A DNA stretch of 33,442 nucleotides, from contig DUNI01000110.1 of the NCBI GenBank assembly GCA_012839445.1, positions 1 to 33,442 on the forward strand. Reading direction: 5' to 3'. Shown piece after piece: positions 10,724 through 26,623 of the stretch (positions are counted from its first letter, which is position 1; each line of letters opens with the position of its first letter). The position numbers and the translations under genes are program-made. This stretch comes from Bacillota bacterium (lineage in GTDB: Bacteria > Bacillota > DTU030 > DUMP01). Below the pieces are notes generated by a model, which saw only the letters and a list, made by a program, of their open reading frames with translations, was not told the origin of the DNA and made no database searches.

Positions 10724-12178
10724 TCATACCAGTCCCAATGCTATAAGGATAATATTTAAGAAAAAGCCGGCCCCAAAAGCAAACGGGAAAATAAAGCCTG
10801 CCATAGCCAAAGCTGTAACCGGCCCGCGTTCTTTCATCATTATTGAAAACTGGGCAATACAGGGAACAAACAGAGTCAATGTAGCTGCCGCCACCACCAA
10901 TTGTCTGGTGGTAAGAAGCTCCTGGGCTACTAAATCGTATAGACCTGCTGCTCCATAGTCTCGGCGGAAAAACCCAAATAAAAACATGGCTCCGGCCTCA
11001 TAGGGAAGGCCTATGAAAGTCACTAATCTACCCAAACCGGACACAGCATAATCAAATAAGCCGGTGATTTTTCCTAACCAAATTAGAACACTAGATAGTA
11101 CAAACATAGGCATTATTTCAAAGAAATACCACTGCACACGAGTCAAGGTTTTGGTAAGCACATTCCCTAATTGGGGTATGCGCAGCGGTGGCACCTCCAT
11201 ATAAAAGGTCGGACTTTGTCCGGGTAAAACTTGAGCTGCCAAATACCCCACCATGAGAAAAATTAAAAGTACAAAAGTAATCCAGATTACTAACGCCAAC
11301 GGTTTTCTCGAAAGCAACGAGAGAATTACACCTAGCTGAGCCGAACATGGTACCGCCAGTGCTAATAACAAGGTGGCAATAACCCGTTCTCTCTTGGTCT
11401 CCAAAGTACGCGTCACCAGCGTAGCCATGGAAGAGCAACCAAGCCCCAACGTAAGTGGTATTACCGCCCGACCTGAGAGCCCTATGACCTTACATAATCG
11501 ATCCACCAACAATGCTAACCGTGGCAGATAACCGCTGTCTTCTATTAGTGAGAATACAAGAAAAAAACAACCCACAATAGGAAGTATGATGGCTATTGCA
11601 TATCGTAATCCTAAAGTAATAATGCCGTATTCATGGGCCAGCAAATCTTGAATTATCGGCCAGGGAATATATTCTCTTACCAACGCATTAACCCAAGGAT
11701 TCAAATAGCCCTGAAATATGGTGCCCTCTATATAATCTACTACCGTGCCGGCACCAAAAACACCTACAAAACGGTAGAGGGCAAAGTACAATACCAAGAA
11801 AAGTACCGGTATCCCCATCGGCAAACGCATGGTAAGTTCCCCTAGAACATCTAACCACGTTTCACGTCGGAGTCTCTCTTTTATTACCACATCTTGAATC
11901 AGTTTGCTACCGGTCTTCTGTCGGCTTACAGCCACCACGTAGCTAATGGGCTTCGGGCTTAGGCTCCGAACTTCTTCTACCGTGGCATCAATTAGGCCCC
12001 AACGATCTCTACCTTCTTTTTTGCGGACCAAGACTGCAATATCTTGATCCCCCTGTAACAACAACATAGCAATAGAGTAACGCGACAGAGCGTAGTGGCC
12101 TCGCATAAGTCCGGTAATTTTTACAGCTCCCTGTTGTAACCACAGGGGATAGTCGATTTTAGGCCGCTGTGCGGACAA
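10724..12178 (-). CDS. feoB: FeoB membrane (permease) subunit lacking the G domain
   Basis: Gate-type segments (LTLGLGCSSMATLVTRTLETKRERVIATLLLALAVPCSAQLGV), TM-rich; TTG start with SD AGAAGGTGG inside the upstream gene. Confidence 0.88.
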   Translation of the reverse strand: MSAQRPKIDYPLWLQQGAVKITGLMRGHYALSRYSIAMLLLQGDQDIAVLVRKKEGRDRWGLIDATVEEVRSLSPKPISYVVAVSRQKTGSKLIQDVVIKERLRRETWLDVLGELTMRLPMGIPVLFLVLYFALYRFVGVFGAGTVVDYIEGTIFQGYLNPWVNALVREYIPWPIIQDLLAHEYGIITLGLRYAIAIILPIVGCFFLVFSLIEDSGYLPRLALLVDRLCKVIGLSGRAVIPLTLGLGCSSMATLVTRTLETKRERVIATLLLALAVPCSAQLGVILSLLSRKPLALVIWITFVLLIFLMVGYLAAQVLPGQSPTFYMEVPPLRIPQLGNVLTKTLTRVQWYFFEIMPMFVLSSVLIWLGKITGLFDYAVSGLGRLVTFIGLPYEAGAMFLFGFFRRDYGAAGLYDLVAQELLTTRQLVVAAATLTLFVPCIAQFSIMMKERGPVTALAMAGFIFPFAFGAGFFLNIILIALGLV

Positions 12179-12719
12179 GTTCAGCCACCTTCTTTCTTAA
12201 GTTTGCCATGCCTTCATTTAACACAGCCGCTGCCGCCACCACCGGTATTCCTAACCGTTGGCTCAGCAGATCACAATCTAGCCTTAAACCGATTCGGCGC
12301 GCTTCGTCCATCATGTTTATCAGTAAGATTAACGGCATCTCTGCTTCTATAAGCTGCAACGTCAGCGACAGCATACGCTCTAAATTACAAGCGTCCACCA
12401 CATGTATCACAACGCTGGGCTGTTCTTGTAATAACAGTTGTCGAGCCACTTTTTCTTCCTCTGTGATGGGCAACAGAGAATACATACCCGGAGTATCCAC
12501 CACCTCCATTTCTTCTTGAATAAAATACCCGCGTCCCCTGGCAACCTCTACGGTGGTACCGGGGTAATTGGATACCGTCACATAGAGCCCGGTCAAGCGG
12601 TTAAAAACCACACTCTTGCCTACATTGGGATTTCCCACCAGTACTGCCTTTCTTAAGGGAGACTGTCTTAGATTCTTTTTTGTTGATTTCTCCTTCTGCC
12701 AAAAGTAAAACCGGCGCAT
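12159..12719 (-). CDS. FeoB-type small GTPase (stand-alone G domain)
   Basis: G1 GNPNVGKS, G2 YPGTT, G3 DTPGMYSLLP, G4 NMMDEA; SD GGAGGGG. Confidence 0.9.
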   Translation of the reverse strand: MRRFYFWQKEKSTKKNLRQSPLRKAVLVGNPNVGKSVVFNRLTGLYVTVSNYPGTTVEVARGRGYFIQEEMEVVDTPGMYSLLPITEEEKVARQLLLQEQPSVVIHVVDACNLERMLSLTLQLIEAEMPLILLINMMDEARRIGLRLDCDLLSQRLGIPVVAAAAVLNEGMANLRKKVAELVRTAA

Positions 12720-14816: not shown

Positions 14817-17285
14817 TTATTGCTCCGTGTCAGCAGCCTTTGCTCCAGAATTGTTAAACACTATCTTATCATCCACGGCGTCAACTTCCACGATATCCCC
14901 AGCCTTGTATCTCCCAGCCAGCATTTCCTCCGACAGCGGATTCTCCAATAGTCTCGTTATAGCCCGTCTAAGGGGACGTGCACCAAACATAGGATCGAAA
15001 CCTTCTTTAGCCAAAACATCCTTGGCTGCCGAGCTAACTCTAAGGGTAAGCTTGCGCTCTTGCAATAAAGCAGACACTTCTTTAAGCATGATATCCACAA
15101 TAGAATGAAGATGCTCTTGACTTAAAGCATGGAACACTATGGTTTCGTCGATACGATTTAGGAATTCGGGTCGGAAAGTGCGTTTTAGCTCATCCAGTAC
15201 TCTGTCTTTCATCTCTTCGTGTTCACCGGCAACACCGGTACGAAAGCCTACAGTGGGCTCTCTACGCAACAATTCGGCTCCTACGTTTGAAGTCATGATC
15301 ACAACGGTATTGCGAAAATCGACAGTGCGACCCTGACCGTCGGTTAAGCGTCCGTCTTCCAGAACCTGCAACAGCACATTGAAAACTTCCGGATTTGCTT
15401 TTTCGATTTCATCAAACAGCACTACCGAATACGGGCGCCTTCGTACAGCTTCAGTAAGTTGCCCCGCTTCTTCGTATCCCACATAACCCGGCGGTGCGCC
15501 AATTAGTCTGGACACAGTATGACGCTCCATATACTCTGACATGTCAAGACGAACCATGGCTTCTTCCTCACCAAACATGGCTTCCGCCAAAGCACGAGCC
15601 AATTCCGTCTTGCCTACGCCAGTCGGGCCCAGAAAGATAAAGGAACCAATGGGTCGTTTAGGATCTTTCAGCCCTGCTCGCGCTCGGCGTACAGCTTTAG
15701 CCACTGCCGCTACGGCCTCGTCCTGCCCGATCACCCGTTTATGAAGTATATCTTCCAATTTCAGCAACCGCTCTGATTCCTCTTCCGCCAGACGTCGGAC
15801 TGGGATACCGGTCCAATCAGCCACCACATGTGCAATGTCGTCGGCCGTCACCTGAACACCGGATTTGCCTTTATCATCGAGCCATTCCTGGCGACTATCA
15901 TCTAGTTTCTGCCGCAGCTCCCGCTCTTTGTCACGCAAACGAGCAGCCTTCTCAAACTCTTGTGCCACCACCGCCGCTTCTTTCTCTTTGCGCACTTCTT
16001 CCACCTGATCCTCCAGATCTTTCACATCTGGTGGAGCCGCAAAAGTTGCTAACCGTACCCGCGACCCAGCCTCGTCAATAAGGTCTATCGCCTTATCAGG
16101 TAAAAATCGTTCAGTAATATAACGACTTGACAGCCGAACTGCAGCCTGCAAAGCGTCATCGGTATACTTCACCCGGTGGTGAGCTTCGTAACGGTCGCGT
16201 AATCCCTCTAAAATTTCCACAGTTTCATCGGGTGTGGGTTCACCTACTGTGATCGGTTGGAAACGGCGTTCCAAGGCAGCGTCTTTTTCAATGTATTTAC
16301 GGTACTCATTGAGCGTGGTAGCTCCCACACACTGCAATTCACCTCGGGCCAACGCCGGCTTAAGAATATTACTGGCGTCAATGGCACCTTCAGCTGCACC
16401 GGCTCCCACCACTGTATGCAATTCATCAATGAATAAGATCACATTACCTGCCTGACGAACCTCGTCCACTACCCGTTTTAAGCGCTCTTCAAACTCGCCG
16501 CGGTACTTAGTGCCGGCCACCACACCGGCTAGATCAAGAATAATTACACGCTTGTCTTTTAAGAGTTCAGGCACTGTGCCCTCTACAATATGTTGAGCCA
16601 AACCTTCTACAATGGCTGTTTTGCCTACGCCGGGCTCACCTATGATAGCTGGATTATTTTTTGTACGACGAGATAGAATCTGAATTACTCGTTCAATCTC
16701 TTTCGTTCGACCAATGACTGGGTCTAACTTCCCTTCACGAGCAAGATTCGTGAGATCGCGGCCTAAGGCATCTAGCGTAGGTGTGGATGATCTGCCACCG
16801 GCAGCTCGTCCCTTACTGCGTTTAGCATCACGAGGCTCGGTAGCACCGAGCAGTTTCAATACCTCTGCTCGCACCTTGTCTAGATCGGCTCCTAGATTCT
16901 CAAGCACCCGCGCAGCTACTCCTTCGCCTTCACGGATTAGCCCCAATAACAAATGCTCAGTACCAATATAATTAACACCCATACCATGAGCTTCTGCTAA
17001 GGCCAATTCAATTACTCGCTTGGCTCGTGGAGTAAGTGTAACTTCCCCCGGTGTAGGAGTCCCGGCACCGGGACCGATGATCTTCTCTACTTCCGCCCGC
17101 ACCTGGTTTAGTTGGATTCCTAATCCATTAAGGGCCTGTGCGGCTACCCCACTGCCTTCGCGAATCAAACCCAGCAGTAGATGCTCAGTACCTACATACG
17201 GATATTTTAACCGCTTTGCTTCTTCTTGTGCCAATATGATTACCTGTTGAGCTCGTTGAGTAAAACGTGCAAACATGAATTGCAC
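14817..17285 (-). CDS. clpC: ATP-dependent Clp protease ATP-binding subunit ClpC
   Basis: Two Clp_N repeats, two AAA+ modules ([20 protein letters not shown]), UVR region. Confidence 0.98.
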
Positions 17286-17296
17286 CTCCTATAGTA

Positions 17297-18361
17297 TTAT
17301 TGATTATTGTCTCCAGAAAGCTCCTCGCGCACTAAAGCAGCACGCTTTTGATCACGTTCCATTGGCGGCAGCGCATCTCCCGCCACCCGCTGGATAAACC
17401 CAGGACGGGTAATTACCAATAGTTTATTTAAGTTGACTAAATTAACTTGAGACAGTAAATTTAAGTTTACCCCCAAACGCACGTCAGATAAGAGCCGCAT
17501 GGCCTCCTCGCTGGTTAACAGCCGGGCATTAGTCAAAACACCATAGGCCCGCCAAACCATGTCCAACAAGCGGTCTCCCAACTCCTCATAGAGACGACCT
17601 CTGGCAGCGCGCTCCTGTTCAATGACCTGTCCTGAGAGAGCTTGGAGATTCTGAATAAGTTCCTCTTCAGAATGGTTCAAAGTCAACTGATTGGAAATTT
17701 GAAAGAAGTTTCCTAGGGCTTGAGTCCCTTCGCCATAAAGGCCACGCACCACCAACCCAAACTGGGCCAAAGTACCAAATACCTGGCTTGCCTGTTTAAG
17801 AAGTACCAATGCCGGCAAATGCAGCATAACCGACGCTCTCAGACCAGAACCCAGGTTCGTTGGACAAGAAGTTAAGAACCCCAGTTTATCATCAAAAGCA
17901 TACTCTAAATGTTGTTCCAGCGAATCGTCTAACCGGTTAGCTAATTCCCAAGCTTTGTCCAGATTTAATCCTGGCATTAGAACCTGCAACCGCTCATGAT
18001 CTTCTTCATTGATCATTATACTAACCGCTTCGTCATCTCTCAGTACTAGAGCTCGTTGTTTAGGCTCCTTAGTATGTTCCCGGCTCACTAAATGCTTTTC
18101 GATTAGTATCTGCTGCTCCAAAGATGATAGCCGGTCCATCTCCAACAACTGGTAACGCTTAGCTTCCGGTAAATGCTCTGAGGCCTGTCGTAACCGGGTT
18201 AAAGCCTGGCCCAGTTCCTCACTGCTGGCAGTAGACGGAAAAGGCAGATCTGCAAGGTTTCTGGCTAGACGAATCCTTGTGGATATCACCACATCGCTAT
18301 CGGGGCCCTGGCCAAGCCAGGCTGAGTTTGCTTGAGTAAATACTTTTTCCGGATCCACCAT
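17297..18361 (-). CDS. mcsB: Protein arginine kinase McsB
   Basis: STRIRLARNLADLPFP, INEEDHERLQ, TSCPTNLGSGLRASVMLHLPAL, RGLYGEGTQALGNFFQISNQ. Confidence 0.96.
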   Translation of the reverse strand: MVDPEKVFTQANSAWLGQGPDSDVVISTRIRLARNLADLPFPSTASSEELGQALTRLRQASEHLPEAKRYQLLEMDRLSSLEQQILIEKHLVSREHTKEPKQRALVLRDDEAVSIMINEEDHERLQVLMPGLNLDKAWELANRLDDSLEQHLEYAFDDKLGFLTSCPTNLGSGLRASVMLHLPALVLLKQASQVFGTLAQFGLVVRGLYGEGTQALGNFFQISNQLTLNHSEEELIQNLQALSGQVIEQERAARGRLYEELGDRLLDMVWRAYGVLTNARLLTSEEAMRLLSDVRLGVNLNLLSQVNLVNLNKLLVITRPGFIQRVAGDALPPMERDQKRAALVREELSGDNNQ

Positions 18362-18362
18362 A

Positions 18363-18896
18363 TTACTGCCCTCCCTTTAGCTTTTTCTCCAGCGCTTTAA
18401 TCTCATCGCGTAATTTAGCCGCTTGTTCAAAAGCTTCGCTAGCCACAGCTTCTTTCAACTGTCGCCTTAAGGCATCCAGATCATAGCGCAACCGGGCAGT
18501 TCCTCCATGCCGACGCGGCACTTTGCCAACGTGGCACACATCTCCTTGTAGGCGGCGAATAAGCGGATCCAACGGCTCTCGAAAAGTAGAATAGCAACGA
18601 GCGCATCCTAACCGGCCTCGTTCCCGAAAATCGCTGTAGGTCAATCCGCAACCGGGACACCGCTTAGCAGTGCCACCCGCCATCGAACCGGTAAAGCCCG
18701 GATGTTGATCCAGCAAGCTGGCAAAAAGACTGCCCAGGGAAAAATCAGGAAACGCAAAGGTAGGTCCAATAACAATATTCCATTCACCCCGCTCACGGGC
18801 ACACTGTTCACACAGATGCGCTTCGGTAGTATCTCCATTTACCATACGGCGTACATAGACCGTAGCTGGGTTTTTCTTGCAACAATCACATAACAT
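18363..18896 (-). CDS. mcsA: McsA, McsB activator (zinc fingers, UVR motif)
   Basis: MLCDCCKKNPATVYV...CEQC, CPGCGLTYSDFRERGRLGCARCY; SD GGAGG before ATG 18896. Confidence 0.93.
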   Translation of the reverse strand: MLCDCCKKNPATVYVRRMVNGDTTEAHLCEQCARERGEWNIVIGPTFAFPDFSLGSLFASLLDQHPGFTGSMAGGTAKRCPGCGLTYSDFRERGRLGCARCYSTFREPLDPLIRRLQGDVCHVGKVPRRHGGTARLRYDLDALRRQLKEAVASEAFEQAAKLRDEIKALEKKLKGGQ

Positions 18897-18926
18897 AACC
18901 ATCGCCTCCATATTTAGGCTTTGTAT

Positions 18927-19379
18927 CTAAATATTAGCCAGCAAAGCCAGCACCATACGTGCGCGTACACGATCGGCCACTGCCGGAGGAAGGCTCAAAA
19001 CCTCGTCCGACACTAGCAAATCCAAATGTCGTGATGCATCCTCGCTAAGCAACTCTGCTTGGTATAAGTGGTTCAAAATCTCTACTGCTTCTGCCTCCGA
19101 CACGATACCTGTGACTTGTTCAGCCAACCGATCCAGCAGGTCAGCTTCAGAAAGCCTCTCGATCCGGATAAAACCGCCGGCACCTCGACGGCTGATCACC
19201 CGGTACCCACGTTCCGGCACAAAACGAGTGGATAATACATATGTTACCTGCGACGGAACACAGGAAAAGTGATTCGCCAGTTCACTGCGCCTGATCTCTA
19301 TGAACCTTTCTTCGGCTTCTTCCAACATCACTTTAAGCCATCTTTCCATTTCATCTGCTAAAGACCACATTGTTATCAC
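18927..19379 (-). CDS. ctsR: Transcriptional repressor CtsR
   Basis: ELANHFSCVPSQVTYVLSTRFVPERGYRVISRRGAGGFIRI; first gene of ctsR-mcsA-mcsB-clpC. Confidence 0.96.
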   Translation of the reverse strand: MITMWSLADEMERWLKVMLEEAEERFIEIRRSELANHFSCVPSQVTYVLSTRFVPERGYRVISRRGAGGFIRIERLSEADLLDRLAEQVTGIVSEAEAVEILNHLYQAELLSEDASRHLDLLVSDEVLSLPPAVADRVRARMVLALLANI

Positions 19380-22499: not shown

Positions 22500-23156
22500 T
22501 CAATCTCCTTCTTCTTCAAAGCCCAATTCTTGAATCCGAAAGGAAATTACCATAAGCCGATCGGCTAAATGTTCGTTTTCTAGAATCACCTCTGGTGGAA
22601 CTTTAATATCTACCGGGGCAAAGTTCCAAATAGCTTTGATGCCTGCTTGCACCATAGTGTCAGCCACCCCTTGGGCCGCTTCTTTGGGCACAGCAACAAT
22701 TCCGATATCAACATTATTAGTTCTGATAAAAGCTTCCAGCTTATCAATGTCCATAATATCACAATTGCGCAGCCCTAATCCAATAAGTTTAGGATTGATA
22801 TCAAATACTCCACGTAAGACAAAACCGCGCTTGCCAAAATTAGGATAATTGGCCAAAGCTTGGCCTAAGTTACCAGCCCCTACAATAACAAGACTATATT
22901 CCTGCTCCAGTCCGATAATACGGCCGATTTCTCGATATAAATCTTCAACTCGGTAGCCATATCCTTGCTGTCCGAATTCACCAAAATGGTTAAGATCCTG
23001 TCTAAGTTGGGAAGCAGAAATACCCATCATGTCGGCCAGTGTCTGGGACGATACCCGTTCTACCTTGCGCTCTACTAATTCACCCAGATAACGGAAGTAT
23101 TTGGGCAATCGTTTTATTACTACCATAGGAACACGCGCTTCTTTGGTATCCCTCAT
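22500..23156 (-). CDS. rex: Redox-sensing transcriptional repressor Rex
   Basis: Winged helix (SASQLRQDLNHFGEFGQQGYGY) and Rossmann fold (VIVGAGNLGQALANY). Confidence 0.97.
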   Translation of the reverse strand: MRDTKEARVPMVVIKRLPKYFRYLGELVERKVERVSSQTLADMMGISASQLRQDLNHFGEFGQQGYGYRVEDLYREIGRIIGLEQEYSLVIVGAGNLGQALANYPNFGKRGFVLRGVFDINPKLIGLGLRNCDIMDIDKLEAFIRTNNVDIGIVAVPKEAAQGVADTMVQAGIKAIWNFAPVDIKVPPEVILENEHLADRLMVISFRIQELGFEEEGD

Positions 23157-23340: not shown

Positions 23341-24480
23341 TTACAACCATTCTACTTCCACCACTTTGCCTTGTTCTTTTAGTACAGCAACTAATTGCCT
23401 TACAGTTCCTGCTCGTAAATTCAGTCCCTGAGGCAAATCAGGGTTTTGATGAGCAGGATTAATCCGTAAGCCTGTAACAAACTTTATTTTATCTGAATCT
23501 GATAATAGCCGCGCCACTCGACTGGCACCATCGGCTCGGTTGGGAATCTCCCCGTCAGAAAGATATGCCAACGCCCGGTTCAAAGTGAGCATTCCCTCTG
23601 TAACCAAGTCAATACCCTCAATATGAGCACAAGGTGGAATTTCCGGATCATCGTATTCCAATTCCACTGTGAGCTGACGCCCAAGCTCTCGCGCGACAAT
23701 ATTCGCTGTGGTACCGCCACAGACAACCTTCTTGCCCGGATATTCCATAAGCTTGTCTACAGCTAAAGAATCCAGTTCCCTTAAGCGCGGTGGCCCAGTA
23801 AACATGATTAGCTGTCGGGGTAAACGGATCTCTACCGCAACCACTGTTGTGTCATCGCCTGGGCTCATAGTGTAGTAGGCAGAACACAAATCTAAAAACC
23901 GTTGTGCCACTTGGTGGGGGGCATTTTTTTGCCTTAGTATCTCTTTGAAATGCCCCTTCACGCCTTCCTCTCCTAACCCCAGTGGCAATATGCCCCCAAT
24001 CCCGGCATGAAGCACGCCATCGCTGATCAGAAGAAGGAAATCCCCAGCCATAAGCTCCAATTTACCCTCTTTAACATCACGGCCGGCCACAACTTTGTGC
24101 TCCGTGGGAAACGGCACCACCTGGCCACGACGCCATAGGAACACCGGCGGACTATCTAACAACACCACTCGAGCTAAACCATTCGCCTTTACCTGCAATA
24201 CAGCCAGAGTCGAATACGCTATTTGACGTTCACGACAAACAGGTAAGGTTTGAGCAATGGTATTAATAACTTCTTCCAGCGGCACTTTCCGTTCTAACAG
24301 CCCAGCGGCAATTTTTGTAGTCAAGGTGGCAAGAATGTTAGCTTTGACACCACTTCCTAAACCATCAGACAGCACCACAGTGGCCCGTTCAGGCGTTTTT
24401 ATCACTTCTACCTTGTCGCCACAAAGTTCTTCTCCTGCTTTGGCCAAGCTCCCCTGTGCCACTTCAGCTACCAATCGCAT
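23341..24480 (-). CDS. SpoIIE/PP2C-type serine phosphatase with additional C-terminal domain
   Basis: VVLSDGLGSGVKAN, LLLISDGVLHAG, SPGDDTTVVAVEI; overlaps the hydrogenase gene. Confidence 0.9.
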   Translation of the reverse strand: MRLVAEVAQGSLAKAGEELCGDKVEVIKTPERATVVLSDGLGSGVKANILATLTTKIAAGLLERKVPLEEVINTIAQTLPVCRERQIAYSTLAVLQVKANGLARVVLLDSPPVFLWRRGQVVPFPTEHKVVAGRDVKEGKLELMAGDFLLLISDGVLHAGIGGILPLGLGEEGVKGHFKEILRQKNAPHQVAQRFLDLCSAYYTMSPGDDTTVVAVEIRLPRQLIMFTGPPRLRELDSLAVDKLMEYPGKKVVCGGTTANIVARELGRQLTVELEYDDPEIPPCAHIEGIDLVTEGMLTLNRALAYLSDGEIPNRADGASRVARLLSDSDKIKFVTGLRINPAHQNPDLPQGLNLRAGTVRQLVAVLKEQGKVVEVEWL

Positions 24481-26212
24481 TACCCACGTCCTCCTTGCCC
24501 CGAGCTAGCTCAATCAGCTGGTGCAAAGTAGCCTTCGTCTCAGCCGTAGTCTCGCCCATGAGACTTGCTATCTCCTGCGCCGCTTTCATCTGCCTGGTGA
24601 TCACCTGTTCAGCACGTACCAAGGCTTCCTGCTTCATCTGTCGAGCTTCTTCTTTATCTCTTTCCAGGTTTGAAATGTCGTTAATGATACCTACAATCAA
24701 GCTGTAATCTTTTATCGGTAAAATGGTCTGTAAAGTTACGCGTTCACGATCCGGATAAACCACTCGTTTATCCACAATGGTTTCCTGTTCTTCCCAAGCC
24801 ATGGCAAAATTATTTGGATCAAAGAAATTACCCAGTGGTTGGCCTGTCACAGCATCGGCATCCAATGCAAACAGTTCCAAAGCCCGGGGGTTAACTTCTT
24901 GCACAATCAGGTTAGAATCAGTAACAATTACTGCACTGGAAGTGGAATTTACAATGGCAACTGCCAAAGATGAAATCTTCGATTTCATGTAGGGGATACA
25001 CATTTCCTCTTCAGCCCATCCTTGGTAAACAGCATATGCCTTTTCACGGCAAGAATCATAACCACAACCACCGCAGTTAGCCTCATCGGCCGGACGGGTT
25101 TTCCCGGTTCGAGCTAAAATAGCGGCAATGTCTTCAGGTGTGGGTTCTGGCAATTTCTGGCGCCGATCATGAAAGCTTCGTGTTAGCTGCAAACCCCTGA
25201 ACATCTCTTCAGGGAGCTCACATGAAGTTTTACCCTTGTTAGCACGATCAAAATATGCTTCCACCTTTAAACGGTTAGCTGCAGCACTCGTTCCTTGAGG
25301 CATGGCTGGGCCACCCACACAGCCACCGCTACAAACCATAGCTTCAATAAATCGCGGATTAATAGACCCGGCAGCTAGATCGTCGAAAGTGGCCAAACAT
25401 TCGTCTAAACCGTTCACCGCCAGAACACGACTACCCAAGTCTCTGGCAATACCTGCTGCCTGCAAAACTCCGCCTTCCACCGGAAAGGATCGTGCCGACA
25501 AGCTCCCGCCACCATACAACCTATTGTGGTTGCTCACGGTCATAGGTGCTATAGCTGCCTCTTCAAACCATTTTTCAAGTTCCGGAAAGGTGATAACTGC
25601 ATCTACAATGCCGGCAACTTCGCGCCTTCTTACCTCATCGATCTTAGCTATACAAGGCCCTACAAACACCACCTTGGTATCAGATCCATACCTTTTCTTA
25701 AGCATTAGGCCGTGGGTAGCCATGGGAGAAAAGCTGGGAGCCAGGTAAGGAATTAGGGCCGGATAATGTTTCTCAATTAAGTTCACCACTGCCGGACAGC
25801 AGGCTGAAATAAGCGGCTCTTTTCGACCTTCCAGCAACTCTTTGTATTCCCGGGCCACCACCTGGGCTCCTACGGCCGTCTCCTCAACCCAGCTAAATCC
25901 AAGAGCCCGAACCATAGATCCAAACGAATCCACCACCTGGCGCGGAAAAGCGGCAGGAAAGGACGGTGCAACACTCAGAGCTACTTTGCGCCCTTCGGCC
26001 AAAAAGTCCTTGGCACGCAGTAAATCACTATGAATCACTTTTGCCTGTTGGGGGCAAACCAATGTGCAACAACCACAGGCAATGCAACGCTCATCGATAA
26101 TATGTGCTTGGCCCAACCGAAACGAAATAGCCTTTACCGGGCAATGGCGTAGACAGCGGTGACAATCCTGGCAATCTGCCACTCGGGTGGTGATTACACT
26201 CATGGCCGACAT
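24464..26212 (-). CDS. Sensory-type (group C-like) [FeFe]-hydrogenase with 2x[4Fe-4S], H-cluster domain, extra Fe-S domain and PAS-like domain
   Basis: CQDCHRCLRHCP, CIACGCCTLVCP; L1 SACCPAVVNLIEKHYP; L2 VGPCIAKIDEV; L3 EAMVCSGGCVGG; CGGCGYDSCREKA...C; PAS-like SSAVIVTDSNLIVQEVNPRALELF. Confidence 0.92.
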   Translation of the reverse strand: MSAMSVITTRVADCQDCHRCLRHCPVKAISFRLGQAHIIDERCIACGCCTLVCPQQAKVIHSDLLRAKDFLAEGRKVALSVAPSFPAAFPRQVVDSFGSMVRALGFSWVEETAVGAQVVAREYKELLEGRKEPLISACCPAVVNLIEKHYPALIPYLAPSFSPMATHGLMLKKRYGSDTKVVFVGPCIAKIDEVRRREVAGIVDAVITFPELEKWFEEAAIAPMTVSNHNRLYGGGSLSARSFPVEGGVLQAAGIARDLGSRVLAVNGLDECLATFDDLAAGSINPRFIEAMVCSGGCVGGPAMPQGTSAAANRLKVEAYFDRANKGKTSCELPEEMFRGLQLTRSFHDRRQKLPEPTPEDIAAILARTGKTRPADEANCGGCGYDSCREKAYAVYQGWAEEEMCIPYMKSKISSLAVAIVNSTSSAVIVTDSNLIVQEVNPRALELFALDADAVTGQPLGNFFDPNNFAMAWEEQETIVDKRVVYPDRERVTLQTILPIKDYSLIVGIINDISNLERDKEEARQMKQEALVRAEQVITRQMKAAQEIASLMGETTAETKATLHQLIELARGKEDVGNAIGS

Positions 26213-26451
26213 CTCCTTAGAATCTTTTCTTGAAACAACTGAAAGACACCATCGCGCTGCACACCGGTAACCAGCTCATCGCCAATACGTACTACTACCC
26301 CTTTAGTACATTGTTCCTGACAGAAAGATCCTTCCAAGTATACCTGATCTTCTAAACCATAGGTAGCAATGAGATCTTGGAGAATCCTGATGACATCAGC
26401 CGAACCCTTCAAATGACATGCGCTCCCCACACAAACAGCTACCCGCAACAT
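26200..26451 (-). CDS. [2Fe-2S] thioredoxin-like ferredoxin (NuoE/HndA-like)
   Basis: MLRVAVCVGSACHLKGS...GSFCQEQC: Cx4C ... Cx3C ligand pattern; overlaps the hydrogenase start. Confidence 0.88.
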   Translation of the reverse strand: MLRVAVCVGSACHLKGSADVIRILQDLIATYGLEDQVYLEGSFCQEQCTKGVVVRIGDELVTGVQRDGVFQLFQEKILRRCRP

Positions 26452-26468
26452 TAGCACAGCCCCCAAGT

Positions 26469-26486
26469 TTGTCATTTCTATCACAA
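26469..26486. promoter_or_regulatory. Candidate Rex operator (TTGTGA-TAGAAA-TGACAA, minus strand)
   Basis: 18 bp site matching 11 of 12 half-site positions of TTGTGAN6TCACAA; abuts the candidate -10. Confidence 0.5.
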
Positions 26487-26514
26487 TGCTAACACGATTG
26501 CAACACTTTGTAAA
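26486..26514 (-). promoter_or_regulatory. Candidate promoter of the trx-Fd/hydrogenase/phosphatase operon (TTTACA-17-TAGCAT)
   Basis: Motif reading on the minus strand. Confidence 0.4.
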
Positions 26515-26573
26515 GCTCAAGTAGCAGTGAATTGGTAAGCCATTTTACTCTTTAATGGCATTATAAAGAAAAG

Positions 26574-26590
26574 CCGGCTATGATAGCCGG
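26574..26590 (-). terminator. Intrinsic terminator downstream of livF
   Basis: CCGGCTA-tca-TAGCCGG followed by CTTTTCTTT. Confidence 0.85.
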
Positions 26591-26623
26591 TCTTTGTTGT
26601 TACTCTCATGTTCCAATTTGATC

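Follow-up and report, generated by a model that had tools for sequence, protein, structure and literature searches.

We analyzed a 33,442-nucleotide (nt) stretch of DNA, contig DUNI01000110.1 of a Bacillota bacterium (GenBank assembly GCA_012839445.1; hereafter, the window), for three overlapping genes that an earlier note, made from the sequence alone, had described as a candidate H2- or redox-sensing module. The genes lie on the minus strand and encode, in order of transcription, a thioredoxin-like [2Fe-2S] protein (26451..26200), an H-cluster protein that we refer to as HydS (26212..24464, 582 amino acids), and a SpoIIE-type PP2C phosphatase (24480..23341, 379 amino acids). The open reading frames were recovered with the overlaps described earlier, 13 nt between the small protein gene and the HydS gene (26200-26212) and 17 nt between the HydS and phosphatase genes (24464-24480). 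Gene order, coupling, and domain content make these genes one translationally coupled unit. The same three genes are kept in close relatives at 66-81% identity, and the HydS and PP2C genes overlap in 71 of 82 loci, indicating that the arrangement is not due to chance.

The earlier note had started the first gene at 26514/26520. Its end at 26200 and its identity were confirmed, but the start is most likely the ATG at 26451, which has a GGGGG ribosome-binding site just 5' of it and yields a protein of 83 amino acids, the length found in most close relatives, among them G002, G004, and G009. The additional N-terminal stretch encoded from the upstream start was not conserved in an alignment of homologues. 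The protein matched PF01257 (2Fe-2S_thioredx) with an E value of 8e-5, just below the Pfam cut-off, and the four cluster cysteines, arranged as Cx4C...Cx3C, were invariant in 91 homologues. It probably carries electrons to or from HydS. A related C-terminal thioredoxin-like [2Fe-2S] domain is found in this genome's group A hydrogenase subunit (L036, 11026-13017).

HydS, a group C-type H-cluster protein

HydS contains two [4Fe-4S] modules (Fer4 pairs), an H-domain (residues 76-302), an FeS motif of the form Cx2Cx4Cx16C (C380-C405), a PAS domain (residues 418-515), and a C-terminal helix (residues 532-567). Pfam matches were Fe_hyd_lg_C (5e-55), FeS PF04060 (1.5e-8), and PAS (2e-6). The H-cluster ligands C139, C187, C294, and C298 were invariant in 92 HydS homologues, and C380, C383, C388, and C405 were invariant in 16 aligned HydS proteins. 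The C-terminal Cx2Cx4Cx16C motif has been reported for groups C and D (PMC8163306). Conservation varied by region, with a mean majority identity of 0.78 in the C-terminal tail (532-567), 0.61 in the H-domain, and 0.52 in the PAS domain. A gene for the maturase HydF is present in the genome.

The earlier proposal of a sensory group C [FeFe]-hydrogenase with a PAS domain was examined by family scoring and by phylogeny. HydS scored 207.6 bits against the NCBIfam model for catalytic group B1 (cut-off, 450) and 131.1 bits against that for group A (cut-off, 406). In a tree of 80 H-domains, HydS grouped with PAS- and phosphatase-linked proteins, apart from group A and also outside group B. The other H-cluster proteins of the genome fell elsewhere in the tree, in group A (contigs 10 and 202) and as group B-like and group D-like proteins (contig 90). 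The separating branches had moderate support (Shimodaira-Hasegawa-like approximate likelihood ratio test [SH-aLRT] values of 88-90). The family scores and the tree together rule out a catalytic group A or B hydrogenase. Tree placement, the Cx2Cx4Cx16C motif with PAS, and phosphatase linkage agree with the proposal, and on these grounds HydS is predicted to be a member of HydDB group C3, "phosphatase-linked (putative)".

The sister clade of the HydS group comprised nine proteins, six with fused sigma-54 activator domains and three with histidine-kinase (HisKA) parts. The nearest kin of HydS thus attach the same H-module to signaling outputs, which supports a sensory reading.

The six sigma-54 fusions (L020, L021, L024, L025, L028, and L029) are group C-like H-cluster proteins joined to a sigma-54 activator AAA+ domain and a Fis-type helix-turn-helix; a PAS domain was not matched in them at the cut-off used. 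From their domain content, they are apparent one-component H2-responsive transcription activators that lie outside the HydDB C1-C3 types. L023, L026, and L027 have HisKA parts in place of the sigma-54 domains.

Three active-site residues, C299, M353, and M497 in CpI numbering, have been found altered in sensory enzymes, as a trend rather than a strict definition (PMC10055695, PMC8163306). In HydS, the M353 position is Gly, as it is in 91 of 92 homologues. The other two are retained, as Cys138 at the C299 position and Met292 at the M497 position. Cys is also kept in 67 of 92 related HydS proteins, indicating that loss of C299 is not general in this subgroup, and Met is found in 11 of the 92. 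Judging from these residues, this HydS may turn over H2 better than TmHydS, the group C enzyme of Thermotoga maritima.

The phosphatase and its C-terminal domain

The identification of the third protein as a PP2C/SpoIIE phosphatase held in both sequence and structure comparisons. Its catalytic domain (residues 1-213; 23842..24480, minus strand) matched Pfam SpoIIE (PF07228) with an E value of 9e-17, and the structure model, with a predicted local distance difference test (pLDDT) score of 88, had the SpoIIE phosphatase domain 5mqh as its best Protein Data Bank (PDB) match (E value, 7e-15). The metal-site residues D22, D39/G40, D154, and D209/D210 were invariant in all full-length homologues and aligned with those of the genome's own SpoIIE. 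The earlier note had named loss of active-site residues as a refuting outcome; they are instead invariant, and a dead phosphatase is ruled out. Residue 1 already belongs to the catalytic domain, whose first strand opens the protein, and an N-terminal regulatory domain is lacking.

The remainder of the protein (residues 214-379; 23341..23841, minus strand) takes in the uncharacterised C-terminal region of roughly 150 amino acids described earlier, which covers about residues 221-379 and is a real domain. Structure prediction gave a confident alpha/beta, Rossmann-like model of about 160 amino acids (pLDDT, 91), with the conserved motifs GPP, CGGTT, PP, TEG, and NPAHQ. The domain had no match in Pfam, and nothing significant was found among PDB sequence profiles (best E value, 0.05) or, by Foldseek, among PDB folds (best E value, 4e-3). 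NBD_C (PF17042) was considered as an identity for this region and rejected, the HHalign probability being a nonsignificant 11% over 39 columns.

A profile of the C-terminal domain alone, built from an alignment of HydS-linked copies, found the domain in 76 of 250 genomes of the phylum, and the gene directly upstream encoded HydS at 29 of the 30 best loci. The domain can therefore be taken as a marker of the HydS system. The sole exception was a phosphatase of genome G017 (L178, 7587-8726), encoded near genes for DUF3810, peptidase C26, and HflX-like proteins. A free-standing copy of about 160 amino acids was present in three genomes of one genus (L174-L176), directly after the NuoE-HydB-HydA genes of a group A hydrogenase. 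This location suggests that the domain works together with a catalytic hydrogenase.

Upstream region and gene neighborhood

A sigma-A-like promoter with an extended TG (TTTACA-17-TAGCAT; 26486..26514, minus strand) precedes the module, and TTTACA with an A+T-rich -10 element was also present upstream in G002, G004, and G009. The imperfect palindrome TTGTGA-N6-TGACAA (26469..26486, minus strand) is a candidate operator for Rex or another repressor. This 18-bp sequence, TTGTGATAGAAATGACAA, lies near the predicted transcription start, where it overlaps the tail of the -10 element and the bases that follow, has one mismatch to TTGTGA-N6-TCACAA, and resembles the published Rex consensus, TTGTGAANNNNTTCACAA (PMC6391272). 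Its position is kept in six genomes while the surrounding promoter sequence diverges. TTGTGA-N6-TNACAA occurs exactly once in the genome, near chance expectation, so that the positional conservation is the only evidence for an operator; we put forward binding of Rex at this site as a proposal only. The clostridial-type Rex operator TTGTTAAN4TTAACAA was not found in the window at three mismatches, and its matches in the hydABC locus were little above chance. A bidirectional terminator-like hairpin (26573..26591) parts the module from an upstream branched-chain amino acid ATP-binding cassette (ABC) operon.

The next gene downstream of the module encodes the redox repressor Rex (22500..23156, minus strand), identified by NCBIfam NF003990 (E value, 5e-94) and by synteny, and is followed by a gene for IMP dehydrogenase. 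The module is likewise followed by Rex in G002, G003, and G006. In the same-class genome G009, whose HydS is 68% identical, the module is followed by NuoE-HydB-HydA. In the genome studied here, the catalytic hydrogenase HydABC is encoded on contig 202, with further H-cluster proteins on contigs 10 and 90.

Neighbors were counted in 48 full-context loci that were chosen by HydS and in which gut Clostridia are over-represented. In 41 of these loci, a catalytic hydrogenase gene was present on the same strand no more than 7.5 kb away. Within the same distance were also AdhE (18 loci), an APH-fold kinase (17 loci), Rex (14 loci), and HydB/NuoF (12 loci). The typical order in gut genomes was Rex, AdhE, kinase, two thioredoxin-like proteins, HydS, PP2C, and HydA, which agrees with the Ruminococcus albus cluster (PMC6776011). 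In one such gut-type locus (L132), the hydrogenase after the module was assigned to group B by NCBIfam; HfsD of the hfs operon has also been described as a group B hydrogenase (PMC8924675). Across the gut Clostridia loci L066-L134, an APH-fold kinase of about 250 amino acids recurs between the AdhE and thioredoxin-like genes and is a candidate opposing kinase. A search for this kinase elsewhere in the genome gave only a weak match (E value, 0.004), which was not accepted as the opposing kinase.

The scanned genes of the window included none for a Ser/Thr kinase, an anti-sigma factor, or a STAS protein, the sole kinase-like gene being that for the arginine kinase McsB (17297..18361). The earlier statement that no kinase, anti-sigma, or anti-anti-sigma gene lies nearby thus stands for the window, with the qualification that the neighbors in relatives (catalytic hydrogenase, AdhE, Rex, and APH-fold kinase) are informative. 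McsB belongs to a heat-shock operon for protein-arginine kinase (14817-19379) that has no relation to the module and is made up of CtsR-McsA-McsB and an open reading frame of 822 amino acids in the ClpC position. FeoB is encoded in the window by two overlapping genes (10724-12719), one for the GTPase domain (12159..12719) and one for the membrane Gate domain (10724..12178), representing either a natural split or a frameshift.

Signal relay, candidate targets, and known systems

Regulatory regions of SpoIIE-type enzymes work via a helical switch (PMC5468089, PMC11418112, PMC12088040). Since the phosphatase has no N-terminal input domain, the HydS C-terminal helix is highly conserved, and the two genes overlap in most loci, HydS may be a split-off sensor that docks on the phosphatase through this helix. 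Such an arrangement would be the simplest reading of these features. Gene order, coupling, domain content, the conserved active sites, the position of HydS in the tree, and the association of HydS with the C-terminal domain were observed, and from them we infer H2 sensing, control in trans, and the target. Overall, we consider it probable, with considerable room for doubt, that the module is a split RsbU/SpoIIE-like, H2-gated sensor-phosphatase with a group C hydrogenase as its sensor and a non-STAS target, plausibly the partner hydrogenase.

In this mechanism, the HydS H-cluster would read H2 (or the ferredoxin/H2 redox state), and the resulting state would pass by way of the C-terminal FeS cluster and then the PAS domain to the conserved C-terminal helix. 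The helix would dock in trans on the phosphatase and set its activity, and the phosphatase C-terminal domain would direct or further tune the enzyme. As a target, the best candidate is the partner catalytic hydrogenase (HydABC, contig 202) or else some other protein in the redox circuit of H2 and ethanol. An NADH-dependent layer of transcriptional control would run in parallel through Rex, which may repress the module operon.

Deletion phenotypes in Thermoanaerobacterium saccharolyticum bear on this mechanism. Loss of hfsC or hfsD shifts flux toward lactate, loss of hfsA or hfsB has the opposite effect, and hydrogenase activity rises in the absence of hfsB (PMC5707799). These phenotypes fit a HydS that restrains a phosphatase favoring the partner hydrogenase. 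Several points weigh against the split sensor-phosphatase with a hydrogenase target. In Thermoanaerobacterium thermosaccharolyticum, overexpression of hfsD is enough to bring back the ethanologen phenotype when hfsC is absent (PMC11837493), indicating that HfsD can function without a strict requirement for the phosphatase. Deletion of hfsC also slightly lowered hfsD expression (PMC5707799), and at least part of the H2 response of R. albus takes place at the level of transcription (PMC6776011). In the genome studied here, no catalytic hydrogenase gene adjoins the module, and the APH-fold kinase of 17 of the 48 relatives, the candidate opposing kinase, lacks a convincing homologue.

How the C-terminal domain would contribute is less certain, and two tentative possibilities stand about level. 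It could be an undescribed hydrogenase-targeting module, through which the H2-gated phosphatase acts directly on an electron-bifurcating or a ferredoxin hydrogenase; if so, H2 production would be under post-translational feedback control that does not pass through a sigma factor. Alternatively, by binding a nucleotide (NAD(P)H or ATP/ADP), it could serve as a second sensor and integrate H2 with the nucleotide pool. The Rossmann-like layout, the glycine-rich loops GPP and CGGTT, and a weak structural resemblance to folds that bind nucleotides or flavins are consistent with such a sensor, as is the 39-column local likeness to NBD_C around GGTT (3 of 53 members touch PF17042, with E values of about 0.07 or worse). 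All of these matches are below significance, however, and an adaptor would account equally well for the lone copy next to a group A hydrogenase.

The phosphatase might also act on a transcription regulator, most obviously Rex, with H2 tuning NADH-dependent repression and the APH-fold kinase of gut Clostridia opposing it. The position of Rex as the next gene in the window and in three relatives, its presence in 14 of 48 loci, the AdhE and kinase neighbors, and the H2-dependent transcription of the R. albus cluster (PMC6776011) are in line with this idea. We regard it as unlikely, since Rex linkage is rarer than catalytic hydrogenase linkage (14 against 41 of 48 loci) and Rex is already NADH-responsive and can alone account for transcription.

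Classical partner switching, with a sigma factor as the output and, as the substrate of the phosphatase, a STAS anti-anti-sigma factor that an RsbW-like kinase (SpoIIAB or the contig 90 protein) restrains, seems somewhat less likely still. It draws on the SpoIIE-like catalytic domain and on the action of characterised SpoIIE/RsbU-type bacterial phosphatases on STAS proteins (PMC11418112), as well as on an RsbW/SpoIIAB-like ATPase that adjoins the group D-like H-cluster protein of the genome. However, this genome (92% complete) has one STAS gene, of the SpoIIAA type, beside a SpoIIAB-like gene, and the single STAS gene of the complete genome G003 also lies beside a SpoIIAB-like gene. Among genomes that carry the module, G047 (98% complete) gave no STAS match, and the only STAS match of the Bacteroidales genome G072 lies in a frame of 590 amino acids. 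Neither a STAS gene nor an RsbW-like kinase gene is linked to the phosphatase in the window. The placement of the sole STAS genes and the lack of a STAS match in G047 make a dedicated STAS anti-anti-sigma target unlikely. Cross-talk may still occur through the RsbW-like ATPase that adjoins the group D-like sensor on contig 90, the second ATPase of its kind in the genome. It lies there with PHP-like genes and with genes recognized by eye, not by a family match, as DRTGG-like; that locus has no linked STAS gene, and the small DRTGG-like proteins could be kinase substrates.

It is improbable that HydS is an accessory catalytic subunit, with HfsA-HydS itself a working hydrogenase and the phosphatase incidental: the retained Cys138 and Met292 and the suggestion of hydrogenase activity of HfsABC without HfsD by the authors of PMC13277313 speak for it, but they are set against the near-universal Gly for M353, the PAS domain and conserved tail throughout the set, the overlap of the phosphatase gene with HydS in 71 of 82 loci, and the transcription activators and histidine kinases to which the sister clade fuses its H-module.

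The way in which fermentative anaerobes sense H2 and divide flux between H2, acetate, lactate, and ethanol bears directly on biofuel strains, in which hfsB mutations raise ethanol yield, and on rumen methane work. The module shares its main features with several described systems. HydDB group C3 (PMC5037454) likewise comprises an H-cluster protein linked to a Ser/Thr phosphatase and proposed as an H2 sensor; the module here differs in that HydS keeps Cys at the C299 position and Met at the M497 position, that Rex is the next gene, and that a catalytic hydrogenase is encoded elsewhere. The hfsABCD operon of T. saccharolyticum (PMC5707799, PMC11837493) has the same order of small protein, PAS H-cluster protein, and serine phosphatase, placing the first two proteins at the HfsA and HfsB positions. 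The resemblance to hfs loci pointed out in the earlier note is borne out by this hfsA-hfsB-hfsC order, as a likeness of gene order and of described protein types. Unlike in hfsABCD, hfsD is not the next gene, Rex being found instead, and the catalytic HydABC is on another contig (L036). The hydS cluster of R. albus (PMC6776011) also combines an H-cluster and PAS sensor with a Ser/Thr phosphatase and is tied to H2/ethanol metabolism, but adhE and a ferredoxin hydrogenase there, and the APH-fold kinase in gut relatives, have no counterparts in the window.

TmHydS (group C; PMC10055695) and TamHydS of Thermoanaerobacter mathranii (group D; PMC8163306) share with HydS the two N-terminal [4Fe-4S] modules, the H-domain, and the Cx2Cx4Cx16C motif. 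HydS is like TmHydS in having a PAS domain and Gly at the M353 position, whereas TmHydS has Ala and Ser where HydS has Cys138 and Met292, and TamHydS has no PAS domain. With RsbU/SpoIIE PPM phosphatases, the phosphatase shares the SpoIIE-type catalytic fold and metal site; it differs in lacking an N-terminal regulatory domain, in having an extra C-terminal domain, and in having no STAS substrate encoded nearby.

The kind of system is therefore already known from HydDB group C3 and the hfs operon. What is new is a C-terminal domain that is specific to HydS and, in one genus, linked to a hydrogenase. Also new are the sister clade with its sigma-54 fusions, the active-site residues that HydS has kept, the layout in which the module adjoins Rex and is separate from a hydrogenase, and the observations that speak against a STAS target. 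For the phosphatase-linked proteins of group C3, whose role has been listed as undetermined since 2016 (PMC5037454), the possibilities are narrowed by the lack of a linked STAS partner, the recurrent hydrogenase neighbor, and the domain that follows HydS and in one genus stands alone beside a hydrogenase, and the comparison yields a concrete, testable prediction for these proteins.

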